This document shows, piece by piece, positions 1,019-10,487 of a DNA stretch of 35,752 nucleotides. The notes beneath the pieces are model-generated. The model saw only the letters and a list, made by a program, of their open reading frames with translations, was not told the origin of the DNA and made no database searches. Both the position numbers and the translations under genes were made by a program. Numbering within the stretch: the first letter of the stretch is position 1; every line of letters begins with the position of its first letter. This DNA comes from Bacteriovoracaceae bacterium (lineage in GTDB: Bacteria > Bdellovibrionota > Bacteriovoracia > Bacteriovoracales > Bacteriovoracaceae): contig JAEUWD010000040.1 in NCBI GenBank assembly GCA_016786485.1, forward strand, positions 1-35,752, in the 5' to 3' direction.

Positions 1019-1549
1019 ATGACACTCTTACTCAAGCAAATATTTGCTTTCTTTAAATTGTTAAATTCAGACACGGGTGAGCAGCAATTGGCGGCAGGCA
1101 TTGCGTGCGGTTTAATTCTTGGCTTTGCGCCGGCTTTATCTTTGCAAACCTTAGTCGTTTTCGTATTGCTTTTTTTCTTTAGAATTCAAATGGGGGCAGC
1201 TTTCCTGGCCGCTTTCTTTTTCAAACTAGTCGCTTACATTTTTGATCCGTTGTTTCACCAGATAGGAGTAGTGATTTTGGAAGTTGAATTCTTACGTCCG
1301 CTTTATACGATACTTTACACGATGCCGATTATCCCGTTTACTAAATTTTATAATACAGTCGTCATGGGTGCAGGCGTTGTGGGCTTCTTACTTGCTCCCG
1401 TCGTTTATTTTTTTGCAAAAAAATCAATTGTAAAATATCGCTTAACGGTAGTTGCAAGATTTAAAGCAACCAAGGTTTGGAAATTTGTTCAAGCCACAAG
1501 TTTTTATAAATGGTACGCCAAGTACGATCAACTCTATGGTGAAGTATGA
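1019..1549 (+). CDS. TIGR03546-like inner-membrane protein (DUF2062-like)
   Basis: This is a 176-residue protein with several hydrophobic segments (about residues 25-55, 58-75, 95-110 and 115-135). The GIACGLILGFAPALSLQ stretch is typical of DUF2062-like membrane proteins, and the overall pattern matches, from memory, the TIGR03546 family of unknown function. The strongest support is context: the next gene overlaps by four bases (ATGA) and looks like TIGR03545, the usual partner of TIGR03546. A ribosome binding site (TTGGAG) lies about six bases before the ATG. Function is unknown; a role in the inner membrane alongside the AsmA-like partner is inferred. Confidence 0.7.
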   Translation: MTLLLKQIFAFFKLLNSDTGEQQLAAGIACGLILGFAPALSLQTLVVFVLLFFFRIQMGAAFLAAFFFKLVAYIFDPLFHQIGVVILEVEFLRPLYTILYTMPIIPFTKFYNTVVMGAGVVGFLLAPVVYFFAKKSIVKYRLTVVARFKATKVWKFVQATSFYKWYAKYDQLYGEV

Positions 1550-3417
1550 ATCAACAATTAAAAAAACAATCTATTGTTAGAAAAGGTGCGGTTATCCCAT
1601 TTACGATAATCGTGGCCTTAACGGTTATCTTTAACATTTTATTCCTTGATTACTTTATTCGTAAATCGGCTGAGTTTATAGGAACTAAAATTAATGGCGC
1701 TGAGGTTAACGTTGCAGCGGTTAATACCAGTTTCATGAATTTATCGTTTGAGATTGTAGGAATCGAGATGACCGATCCTGAGTTGCCTCATCAAAATCGT
1801 CTTCAGGTCGGAAGAATTCTTTATAAGATGTCGTGGGACGCTTTATTACGTGGAAAAATCTATATCGAAGATGGAATGATAAACGATATTAATATTCGTA
1901 CCAAGCGTAAGTATCCTGGTTACGTGGTACCAGAAGATGTTTCAACAGAACCTTCAGCGGCTCAAACTTCTTTAGCGGCAGCGAAAGAAGAATTTAAAGG
2001 AAATATTTTTGGAGATATCTCTTCAGTTTTAACTGGAGTAGATGCAAAATCTCAAACGGCGCAAATTGGTAACGAGCTAAAAAGTAAAAAACGTTATGAG
2101 GAATTAAATAAAGAAGTGGCCGGCAAAGAAGAACAGTGGAAGGCCATCATGAAAGACCTGCCGAAAGATGATGAAATCTCTTCTATCAAAAAACGCATTA
2201 AGGCCATCGATTTTGGTAACTTAAAAGATTTTAAAAAAGCTAAAGACACTTTAAAAGAAATCGACAGCGTAAAAGATGATATCAAAAAAGTCAGTAAGTC
2301 TTACGAGTCAGCTTCAAAACAACTTAAGACAGATGTGAACTATATCGAAACATCAATTAAGGATGTGGAAAAATTAGTTAAAGAAGATGTCCAAGATTTG
2401 AAAAAGCGTTTGAATATTCCATCGCTTGATCCACAAAGTATGGCAAAAATTCTTTTTGGTGCTGAGTTTGCGAATAAAATTAAAGAAGTTGAACATTACG
2501 CTTCTATCGCAAAAGAATATATGCCACCTAAAAAAGATAAGACCAAAACGAAAGACACCATTTCGACACCACCTCCGCGTGGTAAAGGTGTGAATTATCA
2601 ATTTGGTACTCCAACTTCATATCCATTATTTTGGGCCAAACATTTGCAAATTGATTCCAGCAATGCTCAAGGAAATTTAAAAGGTCAGATTTTGGACTTA
2701 ACCAGCGACCAAGCCACCATCAATAAAGCGACAAAGATTAATATTGAAGGAAATCTTCCTCCTGAAAATATTAACGGCATGATGGCCAACATTGTTTTTG
2801 ACCATCGAAATGGTGCTAAAGATTCAGTTTTCGTAAGAATTGCTTCGATGGGTATCACAGATAAAAATCTATCGAATTCTGAAGATGTGAAATTTGCAGT
2901 AAAGAACGCGATAGCTTTCTTAGAATTTAAAGCGAATCTCATTGATGGTCGAGTAGGCATAACACTTCAGAATATTTTAAAAGAAGTGAATTACAGTATT
3001 GAGGCGAAATCAAAAACGATTCAAGAAATCTTAGAAAGTGTGGCCGCAAGTACCCAAACCATTTCAGTTAATGCTGAAGCAAAAGGTTCATGGTCTGATC
3101 TCGACTGGTCACTTCGTACCAATTTGGCCGAGTCGCTTAAAAATGGCGTAGGTGCCCATGCTGATAAGAAAATTAAAGAACTTCAAGATAAGTTAGAAAA
3201 CGAAGTGAAATCAAAAATTGAAGGTGAGAAAAGCAAGTTACTATCTAAAGTTGATTCACTGAAAGGTGATTATCTTGGGAAGTTAGATCTTGATAAAAAT
3301 AAATCAAACGATCTTCTAAAAGAATTGGCCGATGGACAATCTAATTCATCTAAGAGCGCTGCTAAAAAAGCAGGCGCTAAGCAGCTCGATAAATTAAAGA
3401 AAAAACTTAAACTTTAA
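1546..3417 (+). CDS. TIGR03545-like protein with AsmA-like N-terminus and coiled coil
   Basis: This 623-residue protein has one N-terminal membrane segment (about residues 15-36). It is followed by an AsmA/DUF748-like portion in which an 'EIVGIEMTDPELP...NRLQVGRILYKMSWDALLRG' type pattern can be seen. A long lysine- and glutamate-rich helical region (about 180-270) is probably coiled coil, then come a beta-rich part and a second charged helical tail. The layout suggests an inner-membrane anchor with a large periplasmic domain. Its ATG overlaps the stop of the upstream membrane protein (ATGA), so translation is probably coupled. Proteins of this pair are conserved together in Gram-negative bacteria, but I know of no assigned function. 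AsmA-like proteins in general act in envelope lipid transport; extending that to this gene is inference. Confidence 0.72.
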   Translation: MNQQLKKQSIVRKGAVIPFTIIVALTVIFNILFLDYFIRKSAEFIGTKINGAEVNVAAVNTSFMNLSFEIVGIEMTDPELPHQNRLQVGRILYKMSWDALLRGKIYIEDGMINDINIRTKRKYPGYVVPEDVSTEPSAAQTSLAAAKEEFKGNIFGDISSVLTGVDAKSQTAQIGNELKSKKRYEELNKEVAGKEEQWKAIMKDLPKDDEISSIKKRIKAIDFGNLKDFKKAKDTLKEIDSVKDDIKKVSKSYESASKQLKTDVNYIETSIKDVEKLVKEDVQDLKKRLNIPSLDPQSMAKILFGAEFANKIKEVEHYASIAKEYMPPKKDKTKTKDTISTPPPRGKGVNYQFGTPTSYPLFWAKHLQIDSSNAQGNLKGQILDLTSDQATINKATKINIEGNLPPENINGMMANIVFDHRNGAKDSVFVRIASMGITDKNLSNSEDVKFAVKNAIAFLEFKANLIDGRVGITLQNILKEVNYSIEAKSKTIQEILESVAASTQTISVNAEAKGSWSDLDWSLRTNLAESLKNGVGAHADKKIKELQDKLENEVKSKIEGEKSKLLSKVDSLKGDYLGKLDLDKNKSNDLLKELADGQSNSSKSAAKKAGAKQLDKLKKKLKL

Positions 3418-3422
3418 AACTT

Positions 3423-3911
3423 ATGAGTAAAATTCGTGTGCTTTTCGTTTGTCTCGGGAATATTTGCCGTTCTCCAGCCGCAGAGGGAATTTTTTTAAAA
3501 AAAATTGATGCGAAAAACTTTAATCGCAATTTCCAAGTGGATTCTGCTGGAACCGGTAATTGGCACGTGGGTCAATTGCCTGATGCGAGAATGCGTCAAG
3601 TTTCCTTAACTCGCGGCTATGAACTTACCAGTCGCGCTAGGCAATTTACCGCTGAGGATTTTGAAAATTTTGATTTGATTGTTGCTATGGATAATTCCAA
3701 TTATGCTAATATCTGTAAACTATCAAATAACCCCGAACATTTAAAAAAAGTCACCATGATGACTAGTTATTGCCTTAAGCATAAATTAACTGAAGTGCCC
3801 GATCCTTATTTTGGCGGAGAGCAAGGTTTTCATCATGTTATTGATATTTTAGAAGACGCCACAGAATCTCTCTTATCAAGCCTGATTATAAAGCATAAAC
3901 TAGAAGGGTGA
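3423..3911 (+). CDS. Low-molecular-weight protein tyrosine phosphatase
   Basis: The N-terminus carries the LMW-PTP P-loop CLGNICRS: the nucleophile is Cys10 and Arg16 is the phosphate-binding residue of CX5R. The general-acid loop is present as PDPYFGG near residue 124. At 162 residues the length fits the family. Such enzymes dephosphorylate phosphotyrosine, often on bacterial tyrosine kinases that control envelope polysaccharide, or on small phosphorylated substrates. No tyrosine kinase is seen in the window. The start lies five bases after the TIGR03545-like stop, and the next gene overlaps its end by four bases, so it belongs to the same operon; a link to envelope assembly is inferred from that context. 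Confidence 0.9.
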   Translation: MSKIRVLFVCLGNICRSPAAEGIFLKKIDAKNFNRNFQVDSAGTGNWHVGQLPDARMRQVSLTRGYELTSRARQFTAEDFENFDLIVAMDNSNYANICKLSNNPEHLKKVTMMTSYCLKHKLTEVPDPYFGGEQGFHHVIDILEDATESLLSSLIIKHKLEG

Positions 3912-4900
3912 AGGCCTATTATCTTATTTTAATCTCACTTTTATCTTTCAATACTCTAGCTGCGCCTAAGAAATCGAGGAAAACCACGAAGGCCTCAAAA
4001 GCAGAAAAAAAACAAGTGATGTTGCCGGTAGTTAAAGAACCGACCGGAACCGCGATAGATAGATATCAACTTTATGCTAGTAGTAAAATTTTAAACTTAA
4101 GTAGCAGTGTGGATTACTTCTTTGGTGGAATTCGGGTCGACGATGAATCGAATGGTACGTACGCCCGTTTAACTTTTGATAATCTTATCAAGGAGCGTGA
4201 TGGTTATACTTTAACGCCAACGGTGCGTATTCGAATGGATTTACCGGGAACGCGACAAAAGATGAAACTCGTTCTTGATGATGATGATGATTCAGCTAAT
4301 CGTAATACTCAAACCTCCGGTATCACAACCCGCGATCGTTCACGCGGCTTTAATGCTTCATTACGTTTTGTTATCGATCAAAAATCAAAATGGAACCTTT
4401 CTACCGATCTTGGGGTGAGAATGAGAAGTAGTCCATGGTTAAACCCTTTCGTTCGTCTGAGGGGCAGAAGATCATTTTTATTAACTGAAAATTTAGAAAT
4501 GCGTTTTATTCAAGAGTTGTATGAGTTCCTGGAAACGGGAGCTGAAACTCGCAGTACACTCGATTTCGACTATCCTCTTGGTAGTAATATGTTGTTTCGT
4601 TTTGGCAATAATGCCATTTGGACTGATGAGTTGGATTACTTCACCTACAGCAACGGCCCATCGTTATATAAGAAATTATCTCATAAACGAGCGTTAGGTA
4701 TTCATGCGCGGGCATCGGGTGATAATAGTAATGGTTCCACATATACTAACTATGAACTTTTCGTTTCATATAGACAGTTAATTTATAAGGATTGGATCTT
4801 TGCGGAACTAACTCCAGGATTAAGTTATCCTAAAGCACTCGATTTTCAACAAGTCGCTTTTATCAAGATTTCGATTCAGTCACTTTTTGGAAATTTCTAA
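3908..4900 (+). CDS. Secreted beta-barrel-like outer-membrane protein
   Basis: A GTG start overlaps the phosphatase stop by four bases (GTGA). The protein opens with a signal peptide (KAYYLILISLLSFNTLA, cleavage probably before APKK), followed by a short lysine-rich stretch. The rest alternates short amphipathic strands rich in Arg, Tyr, Phe and Asp, with a DDDDD loop near residues 120-125. It ends in Phe after SLFGN, as outer-membrane barrels usually do. It resembles a barrel of about 300 residues but I do not recognise a named family. It is the last gene of the 1019-4900 operon. Its stop codon is nested with the stop of the convergent desaturase gene. Confidence 0.65.
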   Translation: MKAYYLILISLLSFNTLAAPKKSRKTTKASKAEKKQVMLPVVKEPTGTAIDRYQLYASSKILNLSSSVDYFFGGIRVDDESNGTYARLTFDNLIKERDGYTLTPTVRIRMDLPGTRQKMKLVLDDDDDSANRNTQTSGITTRDRSRGFNASLRFVIDQKSKWNLSTDLGVRMRSSPWLNPFVRLRGRRSFLLTENLEMRFIQELYEFLETGAETRSTLDFDYPLGSNMLFRFGNNAIWTDELDYFTYSNGPSLYKKLSHKRALGIHARASGDNSNGSTYTNYELFVSYRQLIYKDWIFAELTPGLSYPKALDFQQVAFIKISIQSLFGNF

Positions 4901-6027
4901 AGATATTGTTTCATCTCTGCGACACAGCTAATCGTTTTTTTCTCTGTTCCGCATTTTGGATTCACCAATGTATCCGCATTCTTGTAAATACGTGGTGTTT
5001 GATAAAGCATTTTAACCGCTTTCCATTTTGGCATAATCATATATTTTTCAGGAAAGAGTTCTCGGAGTTTTTTATCCACGATTTTGGCATTATTCATTGG
5101 TAATGCAGGGAAAAGATGGTGAACAGCATGGTAACCAAAATTTAAATGTAGCACTTCTAAAATCGGGTGGTTGGTAACAGAAACCGTATTTACCAGAGGA
5201 TCATTAGTTTTAGTATAAGGACAAAGATTGTGATTGGTTGAAATATAACTCATAGGGATAGAGTTCTGAACCGCAAACGGAATAAGCACTAAAAAAATCC
5301 AATCTTGTGAGCCAACAAAATAAATATAGGTTGAAAGCATCGCTAACTGGAGTGTGAATTCCGTAAGCATACGTGGCTTGTTCATGCTGTCGTAATATTT
5401 ATTTTGAAAACAGAAAAAAAGTTGATTGGTAATGGCCTGAAATGGAAACCAAAAGAAAAAATAGAAAAAACTTCTTTTATGCCCAGAACCTGGAGTCCAT
5501 GGGAAAATGGCTTTCATAAATTTACTTTTCTTCCAAATCATTTTGGTAGGAAAAGCATCTGGGTCTTTATAAACCAACTGAGTGTGACCATGGTGTAGTT
5601 TATTGTGATTATAGCGCCAATAAGTCGGAGTCGTTAAATAAGGTCCTAAGCCAAAAAAGACAATGAGGTCCTGTAGATTTTTGCTCTTAATAATAGAGCC
5701 ATGAGATGCTTCATGGGCCAAAAAAGCAAAGTTCGTCGTGAGCGTGCCTAGGAGTAAAGATAAACCAAATTTGAAAATGATTGGTAGATCAAAATTGATA
5801 ATCAAGAAAACAGTAAAACTATAGATAAAAATATTGCAAGGAATCCAAAATAAGCGCCAAGGGTTTCTTTGAAAAATTTCTTTTGGTAATGATCCCATGA
5901 GAATTTTTTTATAATCTGGAATGCTCATTAATTCTGGAGATTTCTCATCCATGAAATGTGCAGTTTGCGGCTCAGCTGTTTTTAGCGATAGTTGTTCCAG
6001 GATCGGGGATTCGAAAGATGTTTCCAA
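4897..6027 (-). CDS. Membrane fatty acid desaturase
   Basis: The 376-residue protein has the three histidine clusters of the di-iron membrane desaturases: HEASH at residues 105-109, HNKLHH at 141-146 and HAVHH at 300-304. Hydrophobic segments lie around 60-80, 85-105 and 220-255. Such enzymes introduce double bonds into acyl chains of lipids in the inner membrane. The start chosen is TTG at 6025-6027 because AAGGA lies five bases upstream; the first in-frame ATG is 25 codons further in and has no such site. The 3' end overlaps the convergent barrel gene by four bases. The double-bond position and acyl carrier cannot be told from the sequence. Confidence 0.88.
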   Translation of the reverse strand: METSFESPILEQLSLKTAEPQTAHFMDEKSPELMSIPDYKKILMGSLPKEIFQRNPWRLFWIPCNIFIYSFTVFLIINFDLPIIFKFGLSLLLGTLTTNFAFLAHEASHGSIIKSKNLQDLIVFFGLGPYLTTPTYWRYNHNKLHHGHTQLVYKDPDAFPTKMIWKKSKFMKAIFPWTPGSGHKRSFFYFFFWFPFQAITNQLFFCFQNKYYDSMNKPRMLTEFTLQLAMLSTYIYFVGSQDWIFLVLIPFAVQNSIPMSYISTNHNLCPYTKTNDPLVNTVSVTNHPILEVLHLNFGYHAVHHLFPALPMNNAKIVDKKLRELFPEKYMIMPKWKAVKMLYQTPRIYKNADTLVNPKCGTEKKTISCVAEMKQYL

Positions 6028-6171
6028 AGCATTTCCTTGTCGATTTTAAATAGTTCTTAATTATGCCTGAGGGATGATTCTGCGTAAATAAATAGTTAAA
6101 CAAAAGTTAATTTTACCCGGGTGTCTGAGTCTGATTCTGGACATTCCACAAAGTTATGCCAAAATGTCAGA

Positions 6172-7389
6172 ATGCTGATTTTGTGGCTTCTCATCTTGAA
6201 CATTCACCCTAGTTATTCACTGACTTTGGACGAAGCGTTGAAATTGTCTCTTAAGAATGAAGATAATCAAATCGCCAATGCCAATGTTGAACAAGCTGAT
6301 CACAACAAGAGCTTAGCATTGTCAGCAGCATTACCTCGAATAACAGTCTCAGGGCTCCATCTTCAGCAGCAGGATGCTGCCATTTTTCAATCAGGCTTCG
6401 GACAAAGATATCAAAGAACCTTGTCGATTGGTCTGGTTCAACCACTGTTCAGTGGTTTGAAAGAATTTAAGACCATGGATTATCAAAATTTAAGTATTGA
6501 AAATAGTAAACTTCAGGCCAAGCTAAAAAAATGGGAAACCTATTTAACAGTGGTTCAGCTTTTTTTCTCCGTTCTTTATCTTGAAGATGAAAAACTTAAC
6601 GCTGAAAAATTGCGTGATCTTTATGAAGATCGCGTGAGTTTTCTTCGTGGTCGAGTAAATATTGGTCGTTCTCGTAATAGCGAACTCTACGGTGCCGAAG
6701 CGGAATTCAATAAAGCCAAAATTGAACTGCAAGCTTTAGAGGTTGAGATTCATCGACAAAAGCGTGAGCTCGCACGCATTATCAGTTCCGAAGAAAATCT
6801 CACTTTTAATTATGCCGAGATTAAACTCGAAGATATTGCAGATTACTTATTTAAGTTAGAAGAGCATCCAGAGATTTTAAGTCGCGAAAAACAACTTCAG
6901 ATGGCAGATAAAAACGTATCGATTGTGAAGTCTGATTATTGGCCAACCTTTAATCTTGAAACAAACTATTATATTCGTCGTGGTGGTTCGCTTCGTGACG
7001 TTGAATGGGACGTGGGTATTCGTTTAACCTATCCCATTTTTGAAAGTGGAAAAACTAATCAGGAGCTCAACATAGCTCTTGAAGAAAAAAATAAGGCGAC
7101 GCTTGAATACCAAAAGTTGAAAAAAATTTTAACGAATAATTTTACGTTGCTATATGAACAGATTAAGTATGGTGTGAATCAATTAGAATTACTTGAAACA
7201 ACTGTAAAATTGAGTAAAAAGAAATTAACGGAGTTGCAGAATGAGTACAAACTTTCGTTAGTGACAAATTTAGAGGTCTTGCAAGCTTTGAATGAATATA
7301 TTCTGGCCAAGAAAAATTTAAATAAAACAAAACATGAGAACTACACTAACTTTCATTCACTTCTCATTTTAATCGGAGAACAAGAATGA
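6172..7389 (+). CDS. TolC-family outer-membrane efflux protein
   Basis: The protein has a signal peptide (LILWLLILNIHPSYS) directly followed by LTLDEALKLSL, the classic mature start of outer-membrane efflux proteins. Long heptad-rich helices follow (about residues 170-210 and 330-390), and repeated internal patterns are consistent with the two-repeat TolC fold. From the ATG at 6172 it is 405 residues, normal for the family. An in-frame GTG at 6121 would add 17 residues before the signal peptide and is less likely; neither start has a clear Shine-Dalgarno sequence. The RND pump gene overlaps its stop by four bases (ATGA), so the two proteins should form one export system. No adaptor gene lies between or beside them. 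Confidence 0.88.
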   Translation: MLILWLLILNIHPSYSLTLDEALKLSLKNEDNQIANANVEQADHNKSLALSAALPRITVSGLHLQQQDAAIFQSGFGQRYQRTLSIGLVQPLFSGLKEFKTMDYQNLSIENSKLQAKLKKWETYLTVVQLFFSVLYLEDEKLNAEKLRDLYEDRVSFLRGRVNIGRSRNSELYGAEAEFNKAKIELQALEVEIHRQKRELARIISSEENLTFNYAEIKLEDIADYLFKLEEHPEILSREKQLQMADKNVSIVKSDYWPTFNLETNYYIRRGGSLRDVEWDVGIRLTYPIFESGKTNQELNIALEEKNKATLEYQKLKKILTNNFTLLYEQIKYGVNQLELLETTVKLSKKKLTELQNEYKLSLVTNLEVLQALNEYILAKKNLNKTKHENYTNFHSLLILIGEQE

Positions 7390-10300
7390 ATTTAACCGAA
7401 TTATCCATTCGAAAGCCCGTTTTCGCATGGATGTTAATGTTAAGTTTTATTATCTTTGGAACGATTTGTTTTTTTGACATGGGCATTAGTGATAAGCCTG
7501 ATATCGATTTCCCAGTGGTTAATATTAATGTTGTTTGGGAAGGTGCTGCTCCAGAAGTTATGGAGCTGGATATTGTCGATCCACTTGAGAGTTCGCTCTT
7601 GGGTGTCGAAGGAATCAAATTAATTACTTCAGATTCAAAGCGTGGCCAGGCCAATATTACTTTAGAATTTGGCCTTGATAAGAATGTCGATATCGCTGTT
7701 CAGGAAGTTCAAGCCATTTTGGGGCAGGCCCAAAGAAATTTACCATCCGGAATTGAAACTCCGACTGTTCGAAAAACTAATCCTGAAGATCGTCCAATTA
7801 TTTGGTTAGCGGTAAAAAGTCAAAAAATGGATCGGCGTGAACTGATGACGTTCGTTCGTGATAATATTAAAGATCGTTTTCAAACGATTAAAGGTGTTTC
7901 TGAAATTAACTTAGGTGGATACATTGAGCCGAACTTAAGAGTTTGGTTATCAGAAGATAAATTACGCAAGTACGATCTGACCGCGATGGATATTTTAAGT
8001 ACCGTTTCGAGTGAGCACTCAGAGTTGCCATCGGGAATTTTTGAAAACTCGACAACGCTTTATAATATTCGAACACTCGGTGAAGCGTATACCTTAAAAG
8101 AATTTGAGAAGCTTTCGATTAATCGTCGTGGTGGCTCACCAAACTTTCATCCAATTCCTCTTAGTGCTGTAGCAAACATCGAAGATGGTCTCGAAGATGT
8201 AAGGCGTTTGAGCCGTGTTAACGGTGAGCCATCGATTGGTTTAGGGATCAAAAAACAACGTGGTGTTAATACAGTTGAGGTTGCAAATTTGGTTCGTGAA
8301 CGTATGGCCGAAATTGCAAAAGATCTGCCTAAAGGAACTGAGATTGGTATTAACTATGACGGTTCAGTTTTTATTGAAGATGCGGTCGGTGAGCTCGAGC
8401 ATACTTTATGGTTAGCGGGTTTAATGACTTCTATCGTAATTTGGTTTTTCCTCGGTTCACTTTCATCAACATTTAACGTTGCTCTCTCGATTCCAACCGC
8501 CATCATGGGAACTTTCGTTATCTTAAAATTTATGGGTTACACCCTAAATACTTTCACGATGCTCGGGTTAACGATGGCCGTCGGTATTATCGTTGATGAT
8601 AATATTATGATTTTAGAAAATATTTATAGGAAGTATGGGATTCTAAAAGATAAGGTTCGAGCATCGCTGGAGGGTACCGAGGAAATTAAGTCTGCTGCAC
8701 TGGCGGCATCAACTGCGATTATTGCTATTTTCCTTCCGATCGCTTTTATGGATGGAATCATTGGTAAATATTTTGCCCAATTTGCAATTACCATTTCCGT
8801 TGCCATCGTCTTTTCATATATCGATGCTATTACCTTAACACCAATGAGAACTTCGATTTTTATCGACGAACATAGTGCTAATAATCCACGCTGGATTGAT
8901 CGGAAAATGCTGGAATGGGAAGTAAGCTATACAAAAATTTTGAAATGGTGCCTGAATAAAAGTTGGACGATTATTTTGGGTTCGTTTGCCACACTGCTGA
9001 TTACCGGGATTATTTATACTTTTGTAAAAAAAGAATTTGTTCCCCCGCAAGATCAATCACGCCTTATGATTATTTTTAAAACACCACCGTCTTCATCATT
9101 AGAATTTACTGATACGAAGATGAAGGAAATTGAAAAGATTTTGATAGCTCAGAAAGAAATTAAACGTTATTTCGCAACCGTTGGTGGATTTAGTGGCGCA
9201 GAGGCCAACTCTGGTATGTCATTCGTAACACTTCATAATTTTGATGATAGGCCGATTAATCCTGAAAAGAAAAAGCGTTTAACTCAACAAGAATTTGCTG
9301 ATTACTTGAAACCAAAGTTAGCTGAGGTTAAAGGTATTTTTAGTATTATCCAAGACCCGTCGCTGGGTGGATTTTCGGGCGGTCGAAGTTATCCTGTTGA
9401 ATTCGCCATGGTGGGAACGAATTGGGATAAAATTATCGAGCAGAGTGAATTATTAAAAACTGAAATGCTAAAAAGCGGTTTGATGGTTGAAGTCGACTCA
9501 GATTACAAAGGTAAAGTGCCTGAGATTCGTATTATTCCAGATCGCGATAAAGCTATTGCTCGTGGTGTGAGTATTGAAGAAATAGGGAAAACCATTCAAT
9601 CCATGATTAGTGGCGTGGTGGCCGGTAAGTTTGCTAAGGGAGGAAGACGCTACGACATTCGTTTGAAAATTCAAGACCGTGAATTGAAATCAATAGAAGA
9701 CTTAGAAAAAATTCGTATTAGAAATAATCGAGGTGAATTAATATCACTCTCTGAGGTAACAACAATTAAAACGGATGAAGGTTTATTGGCCATCACTCGT
9801 AATGAGCGCCGTCGTGCTATTTCGATTTACTCCAATGTGCCTGGAACTTCAACTCAAGCTGAAGCGCTAGACTTCGTAAACAAAGAAATTAAACCGAAAC
9901 TAGATCCTTCAGTTTCGTTGGTCGAGTCAGGAACATCAAAAGAATTTAATAAAACTTTCCAAAGTTTTATTTTCGTTTTCATCTTAGGAATCTTGATTGC
10001 CTATATGTTGCTAGCATCCCAATTTAATAGTTTTATTCACCCGGTAACGATTCTTGCGGCCCTTCCTTTCAGTGTGACCGGCGCATTGATTACGCTTTGG
10101 TTAACTGGGCATTCTCTCAATATTTACAGTCTTATCGGTCTGATTCTTTTAATGGGAATTGTTAAGAAAAATTCGATCATTCTGGTGGATTACACCAATC
10201 AGATTCGCGCTCATGAAGGTTTAGCAGTGCCTGAGGCATTACTTAAAGCATGTCCGATACGTTTGAGACCGATTGTCATGACTTCAATTTCAACACTGGC

Positions 10301-10487
10301 GGGAACTTTACCGGCGGCCTTAGCTTTAGGTCCTGGTGCTGAAACGAGAGTTCCAATGGCGCTAGCGATTATCGGTGGGGTTTTACTTTCAACCATTTTA
10401 ACTTTGATTGTTATTCCATGTATTTATTTATTGCTTTCGCCGCTTGAGAAAAATGCGCCGATTAGTACTGAAGGACCTGTTTCGTAA
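7386..10487 (+). CDS. RND-family efflux pump permease (HAE1/AcrB type)
   Basis: At 1033 residues the protein has the AcrB architecture: a first membrane segment near residues 12-30, a large periplasmic domain, a membrane bundle (about 335-490), a second periplasmic domain, and a final bundle (about 865-1020). The proton-relay residues are in place: adjacent aspartates at 404 and 405 in GIIVDDNIMILEN, and the lysine corresponding to AcrB Lys940 at 928 in GIVKKNSII. It should export small molecules by proton antiport. Translation is coupled to the TolC-family gene through an ATGA overlap. The usual periplasmic adaptor gene is missing from this operon. The 3' end overlaps the convergent SGNH hydrolase gene by 26 bases. 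Substrate unknown. Confidence 0.93.
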   Translation: MNLTELSIRKPVFAWMLMLSFIIFGTICFFDMGISDKPDIDFPVVNINVVWEGAAPEVMELDIVDPLESSLLGVEGIKLITSDSKRGQANITLEFGLDKNVDIAVQEVQAILGQAQRNLPSGIETPTVRKTNPEDRPIIWLAVKSQKMDRRELMTFVRDNIKDRFQTIKGVSEINLGGYIEPNLRVWLSEDKLRKYDLTAMDILSTVSSEHSELPSGIFENSTTLYNIRTLGEAYTLKEFEKLSINRRGGSPNFHPIPLSAVANIEDGLEDVRRLSRVNGEPSIGLGIKKQRGVNTVEVANLVRERMAEIAKDLPKGTEIGINYDGSVFIEDAVGELEHTLWLAGLMTSIVIWFFLGSLSSTFNVALSIPTAIMGTFVILKFMGYTLNTFTMLGLTMAVGIIVDDNIMILENIYRKYGILKDKVRASLEGTEEIKSAALAASTAIIAIFLPIAFMDGIIGKYFAQFAITISVAIVFSYIDAITLTPMRTSIFIDEHSANNPRWIDRKMLEWEVSYTKILKWCLNKSWTIILGSFATLLITGIIYTFVKKEFVPPQDQSRLMIIFKTPPSSSLEFTDTKMKEIEKILIAQKEIKRYFATVGGFSGAEANSGMSFVTLHNFDDRPINPEKKKRLTQQEFADYLKPKLAEVKGIFSIIQDPSLGGFSGGRSYPVEFAMVGTNWDKIIEQSELLKTEMLKSGLMVEVDSDYKGKVPEIRIIPDRDKAIARGVSIEEIGKTIQSMISGVVAGKFAKGGRRYDIRLKIQDRELKSIEDLEKIRIRNNRGELISLSEVTTIKTDEGLLAITRNERRRAISIYSNVPGTSTQAEALDFVNKEIKPKLDPSVSLVESGTSKEFNKTFQSFIFVFILGILIAYMLLASQFNSFIHPVTILAALPFSVTGALITLWLTGHSLNIYSLIGLILLMGIVKKNSIILVDYTNQIRAHEGLAVPEALLKACPIRLRPIVMTSISTLAGTLPAALALGPGAETRVPMALAIIGGVLLSTILTLIVIPCIYLLLSPLEKNAPISTEGPVS

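Follow-up and report, generated by a model that had tools for sequence, protein, structure and literature searches.

Introduction

Proteins of the AsmA clan are leading candidates for lipid transport between the membranes of the bacterial envelope. According to one article (PMC8593681), TamB, YhdP, and YdbH contain a β-rich region of more than 700 residues, which is able to cross the periplasm, and the partners of YhdP and YdbH were unknown as of 2021. Here we describe a gene pair that encodes TIGR03545, a short protein with an AsmA-type domain, together with TIGR03546, the small conserved membrane protein without which it is hardly ever found. The pair occupies positions 1019–3417 of a 35,752-nucleotide stretch of DNA from a Bacteriovoracaceae bacterium (assembly GCA_016786485.1, contig JAEUWD010000040.1), which is hereafter called the window. 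Both proteins belong to the NCBIfam families of the same names, which are likewise adjacent and in the same order, with no difference from the present locus, and which NCBIfam annotates without a function. The pair would provide a tractable system for studying how lipid enters AsmA-type proteins, and it offers a testable function for two families that currently have none.

The TIGR03546/TIGR03545 pair is a conserved unit

The first gene of the pair (1019–1549, forward strand) encodes a polytopic membrane protein of 176 residues, which matches the TIGR03546 profile over positions 1–153 of 154 with 155.4 bits (E-value 1e-45; cut-off, 79.45) and also exceeds the cut-off of DUF2062 (37.1 bits, as compared to 27.4). 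The second gene (1546–3417, forward strand) encodes a protein of 623 residues, which matches TIGR03545 over profile positions 2–553 of 556 with 347.2 bits (E-value 1.6e-103; cut-off, 173.35). An earlier reading of the DNA, made from its letters alone and hereafter called the original prediction, had assigned both proteins to these families, and the assignments are correct, since both scores lie above the curated cut-offs.

Using the two profiles, we searched 290 genomes drawn from the phylum. Each family exceeds its cut-off in 163 genomes. When strong matches are counted, 169 genomes hold both families and 119 hold neither; two hold TIGR03545 only, in one of which the locus is cut by the start of the contig, and none holds TIGR03546 only. 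The two genes are adjacent, co-oriented, and in the same order in all 89 phylum loci besides that of the window, which bears out the earlier description of them as a conserved gene couple. In a named genome collection, whose 80 loci overlap with the phylum set, the genes are adjacent and co-oriented at 79 loci, and at the 80th the contig stops 144 bases past the gene 1 match. This collection also contains beta- and gammaproteobacterial loci, including those of Nitrosomonadales, Gallionella, Sideroxydans, and Gammaproteobacteria metagenome-assembled genomes (MAGs). The retention of the pair across the phylum far exceeds chance. The pair, which is inherited and lost together with its order kept, constitutes the functional unit, rather than the quartet that it forms in the window with the two genes downstream.

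No conserved functional neighbor of the pair was found across the 90 phylum loci, nor at the beta- and gammaproteobacterial loci. At four loci outside the window's family (L074, L076, L084, and L085), the pair adjoins a thioredoxin-like gene and apparent ribosomal-operon genes, which were recognized by eye.

A 2014 ortholog study (PMC4035852) describes the TIGR03545 and TIGR03546 domains as fused into one gene in two species. Judging from the sequences, the basic C-terminal part of the first protein and the N-terminus of the second would both lie in the cytoplasm, and such a fusion would fit this topology and the gene order. A literature search on TIGR03545, TIGR03546, and FTT0505 yielded nothing beyond this study, and a search for AsmA-like proteins in the context of Bdellovibrio gave no match.

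TIGR03545 begins with an AsmA-type domain

The N-terminal ~125 residues of TIGR03545 are an AsmA-type domain preceded by an inner-membrane helix, and this assignment is solid. In the window protein, the DUF748 profile covers residues ~4–133 (positions 1555–1944, forward strand). The N-terminal membrane helix and the ~105-residue domain after it are both shared with the AsmA clan, namely AsmA (PF05170), DUF748 (PF05359), TamB (PF04357), and YhdP (PF13116). In a genome search with DUF748, the window's TIGR03545 gene was matched over profile positions 7–133 (E-value 3.8e-7, 28.9 bits). Counted from the individual rows of the results, matches to TIGR03545 were obtained in 35 of the 45 family genomes that are known to carry this gene. 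The same search matched the N-termini of 13 TamB-length frames, which served as a positive control. When 75 TIGR03545 members were scanned with Pfam, six matched DUF748 (best E-value 3.1e-8) and five matched AsmA (best E-value 1.6e-4). Twenty members were also rescanned singly, and two of them show DUF748 at residues 24–128 and 20–129 (E-values 4.4e-8 and 4.2e-7), aligned to the start of the profile.

The reverse search, with the TIGR03545 profile against eight genomes of other groups, gave five extra matches, all at the N-terminus of the profile and all to AsmA-clan proteins: four are AsmA proteins (PF05170, E-value about 1e-62), and the fifth carries a YhdP match. DUF748 is itself treated as AsmA-like in a Pseudomonas study (PMC10900882). 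The "AsmA-like" label that the second gene had initially received thus holds for its N-terminal ~125 residues, on the strength of the DUF748 and reverse matches, while the remainder has a different architecture. Unlike the members of the AsmA clan, TIGR03545 combines no more than two short sheets with an inserted helical region and a long helix at the C-terminus, scores below the whole-family cut-offs, and is partnered with a DUF2062 protein at every locus examined.

A YhdP N-terminal match was also observed in the middle (residues 605–687) of a 994-residue protein (L259:225–3206) in the Nitrosomonadales MAG that holds locus L141, which suggests a fused AsmA-type module.

Predicted architecture of TIGR03545

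The predicted model of TIGR03545 (predicted local distance difference test score, pLDDT, 85.7; predicted template modeling score, 0.70) consists of a transmembrane helix (residues 13–50), four strands (54–120), helices (138–338), nine strands (362–525), and a C-terminal helix (526–620), the end of which has low confidence. The strands at 54–120 and 362–525 are the only ones in the model, and the protein therefore lacks the long β-rich bridge of the TamB/YhdP/YdbH type. At 1.5 Å per residue, the ~95-residue C-terminal helix could measure about 14 nm. The second sheet (355–526) is moderately amphipathic, with a β moment z of 2.7 as compared to 5.4 for the AsmA control, and the helices are strongly amphipathic (α moment z, 5.4 and 4.2). 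In a strand-by-strand test of amphipathicity, 3 of the 13 strands reach p<0.05, uncorrected.

In structure comparisons with VIA-align, helical bundles are the top matches to the model, followed by porins, apolipoprotein B, LPD-3, and Vps13 at comparable Z scores. The alignments to the eukaryotic bridge-like proteins begin at model residue 34: LPD-3/BLTP1 aligns over 251 residues (Z 7.2; root-mean-square deviation, rmsd, 8.7), and the N-terminal fragment of Vps13 over 156 residues (Z 6.1, rmsd 5.2). TIGR03545 is far shorter than these proteins, and unrelated porins tie with them. A search of Protein Data Bank (PDB) sequences with the TIGR03545 alignment returned nothing but coiled-coil, apolipoprotein, and comparable helical matches, which we attribute to composition. 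On the question of a lipid groove, the predicted fold does contain an amphipathic sheet, but it also contains a long helical stalk, which known AsmA bridges lack; a groove is plausible.

TIGR03546, the conserved membrane protein of the pair

TIGR03546 is a subfamily of DUF2062 (PF09835) that is tied to TIGR03545, and all 51 TIGR03546 members scanned match DUF2062. Its predicted model is all helical (pLDDT 85.8). The mean column identity is 69% for TIGR03546 (51-row alignment) and 36% for TIGR03545 (75-row alignment). TIGR03546 is thus far more conserved than its partner, which suggests that the two proteins would form a complex whose working part is membrane-embedded.

When the TIGR03546 model was compared with 30 chains by VIA-align, no clear fold emerged (best Z 3.2, FLVCR1), and a PDB sequence search gave no match. 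TIGR03546 is likewise small and polytopic with short helices, as are the DedA/TMEM41B (VTT) proteins, and this likeness was considered for a possible role as a lipid scramblase. Sequence homology to DedA/VTT (PF09335) is not supported: the best hhalign probability is 3.4%, and when four E. coli DedA proteins were compared singly, their scores did not leave the range spanned by 24 control proteins. Neither PF09835 nor DUF2062 occurs in the accessible text of the TMEM41B/DedA paper (PMC7818093).

Proposed role of the pair

How might the two proteins work together? We favor, with a probability of about 0.45, a role in lipid handling at the inner membrane, in which TIGR03546 is the obligate partner of TIGR03545. 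The process may be pictured as follows.

Complex formation: TIGR03546 and TIGR03545 would form one inner-membrane complex, and TIGR03546, within the bilayer, would hold, position, or gate the base of TIGR03545.

Lipid exit: A lipid, most likely a phospholipid, would leave the inner membrane via the base of TIGR03545 and enter the AsmA-type sheet.

Periplasmic stalk: The helical part of TIGR03545 and its basic C-terminal helix would form a stalk directed toward the cell wall or the outer membrane. The complex as a whole would aid the lipid homeostasis of the envelope alongside TamB.

Several results weigh against this proposal. The DUF748 score of the window's TIGR03545 stands against a Pfam cut-off of 50 bits, the scores remain below the whole-protein cut-offs for AsmA and DUF748, and the Pfam scan matched only the 6 (DUF748) and 5 (AsmA) of 75 members given above; neither domain was listed when the window protein alone was scanned with Pfam. 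The hhalign comparisons of TIGR03545 with E. coli AsmA, YhjG, and YicH were not significant: in a set of 113 proteins from E. coli, AsmA came 4th and 7th, in the wrong register, and YhjG came 63rd and 71st. Since this direct comparison with the E. coli paralogues failed, the kinship rests on the Pfam DUF748 and AsmA profiles and the reverse search. With regard to structure, the N-terminal strands (46–130) have no significant hydrophobic alternation (β moment z, 0.9), Foldseek returned no match to the TIGR03545 model at E≤0.001, and in VIA-align the porins and apolipoprotein B score level with Vps13 and LPD-3. The predicted sheets also look too short for crossing the periplasm. Finally, in the literature searched, we found neither lipid binding nor an interaction nor a phenotype reported for the pair.

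In the most probable alternative, the pair would serve as a tether or scaffold of the envelope, in which the anchor and stalk of TIGR03545 link the inner membrane to the wall or the outer membrane, the AsmA-type domain is a mere mount, and no lipid is moved. The helical insertion of ~200 residues, the long C-terminal helix, the amphipathic character of the helices, and the helical bundles at the top of the structure matches all agree with such a function. However, these bundle matches are unspecific, and a tether leaves unexplained both the N-terminal homology to the AsmA clan and the moderately amphipathic second sheet; we consider it unlikely, at roughly half the weight of lipid handling.

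The second alternative concerns the cargo, and it is best weighed against the other AsmA-clan proteins of the family. TamB occurs in 84 of the 95 family genomes and in all 62 of the good ones, and the window's genome is among those that hold it. Because several of these good genomes lack the pair, whereas every one holds TamB, the pair is an addition to TamB and not a replacement. This background leaves room for a special cargo, and the pair might secrete or assemble something other than bulk phospholipid, such as a glycolipid, a lipoprotein, or an outer-membrane protein, as proposed for the translocation and assembly module (TAM). The substrates proposed for AsmA-clan proteins are indeed diverse, but the pair has no conserved cargo gene next to it, and we regard a special cargo as a little less probable again than a tether.

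Few genomes of the family hold AsmA proper, which exceeds its cut-off in 2 of the 95. YhdP is also found in two, and these are exactly the genomes with the four-gene order described below, the window's own (G000) and G088. In the former, a YhdP-type protein of ~790 residues is encoded outside the window (G000:C13:32595–34916). The simplest reading of the shared YhdP and gene order is that G000 and G088 are possibly sister lineages.

Within the favored role in lipid handling, a more specific function of TIGR03546 can be considered. In eukaryotes, bridge-like lipid transfer proteins such as Vps13 and Atg2 cooperate with scramblases in the membrane. By analogy, TIGR03546 might serve an AsmA-type lipid transfer protein as its dedicated gate for lipid in the inner membrane, perhaps by acting as a scramblase; we hold this parallel to be doubtful. 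If it were true, an AsmA-clan protein would have an obligate partner in the inner membrane, namely TIGR03546.

Genes 3 and 4 are recent local neighbors

In the window, the pair is followed on the forward strand by a gene for a low-molecular-weight protein tyrosine phosphatase (gene 3, 3423–3911, 162 residues) and a gene for a probable outer-membrane β-barrel protein (gene 4, 3908–4900, 330 residues, GTG start), both of which are lineage-specific neighbors. The tight packing of four genes at 1019–4900 was correctly reported at the outset: all four open reading frames are present on the forward strand, and they are separated by a 4-base overlap, a 5-base gap, and a 4-base overlap. Promoter and terminator scans of the window found no more sites than in shuffled sequences, and transcription of the four genes as a single unit is therefore inferred from the spacing only.

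Gene 3 matches PF01451 (E-value 5.8e-43), and its closest solved structure is 3jvi (E-value 4.6e-46). The CX5R motif forms the active site of low-molecular-weight tyrosine phosphatases, and it is present, followed by serine, at residues 10–17 (CLGNICRS). Gene 4 has no Pfam match over the cut-off, no NCBIfam match, and no PDB sequence match. In its family-averaged sequence, hydrophobicity alternates strongly from residue 45 onward (β moment z of 6.3 relative to local shuffles), its N-terminus resembles a signal peptide, and its C-terminal residue is Phe. Gene 4 thus probably encodes a secreted β-barrel protein of the outer membrane.

Homologues of genes 3 and 4 occur in 63 and 58 of the 95 family genomes, respectively. 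Among the 90 loci, the window and locus L038 (the same as L134) of G088 are the only ones at which they come after the pair, and elsewhere they have unrelated contexts. Thirty-two family genomes contain the pair as well as a homologue of gene 4, and in 30 of these, as read row by row, the two lie on different contigs. Of 18 further family loci with a gene 3 homologue, 14 show the same neighbor beside it; in the one locus checked, this neighbor is a peptide deformylase gene, and GreA/GreB, DUF6165, and methyltransferase genes are also present. Gene 4 homologues are often close to ThiF-type and pseudouridine synthase genes. Therefore, the juxtaposition arose in one branch, in which genes 3 and 4 came beside the pair, probably as passengers or late accessories.

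A four-part trans-envelope machine, with the barrel as its outer-membrane end and the phosphatase as its regulator, would suit how closely the four genes are packed in the window and their recurrence in this order in a second family genus (L038), but it is very improbable, as 88 of the 89 other loci lack genes 3 and 4 beside the pair, both genes are located elsewhere in other family genomes, and the phosphatase homologue of the second genus is only 7th among the matches listed, the window's own included. We accordingly reject the quartet as a general system, and the four genes are largely not neighbors in relatives. Of the trans-envelope layout in the original prediction, the inner-membrane and periplasmic part stands and the barrel is reasonable from its sequence, whereas the quartet as a trans-envelope system is not supported; nothing was found in support of a regulatory phosphatase.

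Flanking genes in the window

Upstream of the pair, an S-adenosylmethionine-dependent methyltransferase gene (327–962) lies on the same strand and ends 56 bases before it; the two could share a transcript. The region at 6121–10487 contains a TolC-type channel gene and then an AcrB-type pump gene, which overlap by four bases and are not separated by a gene for a periplasmic adaptor. A fatty acid desaturase gene (4897–6027), for which DesB is the nearest NCBIfam model, below the cut-off, is convergent with gene 4 and overlaps it by four bases.

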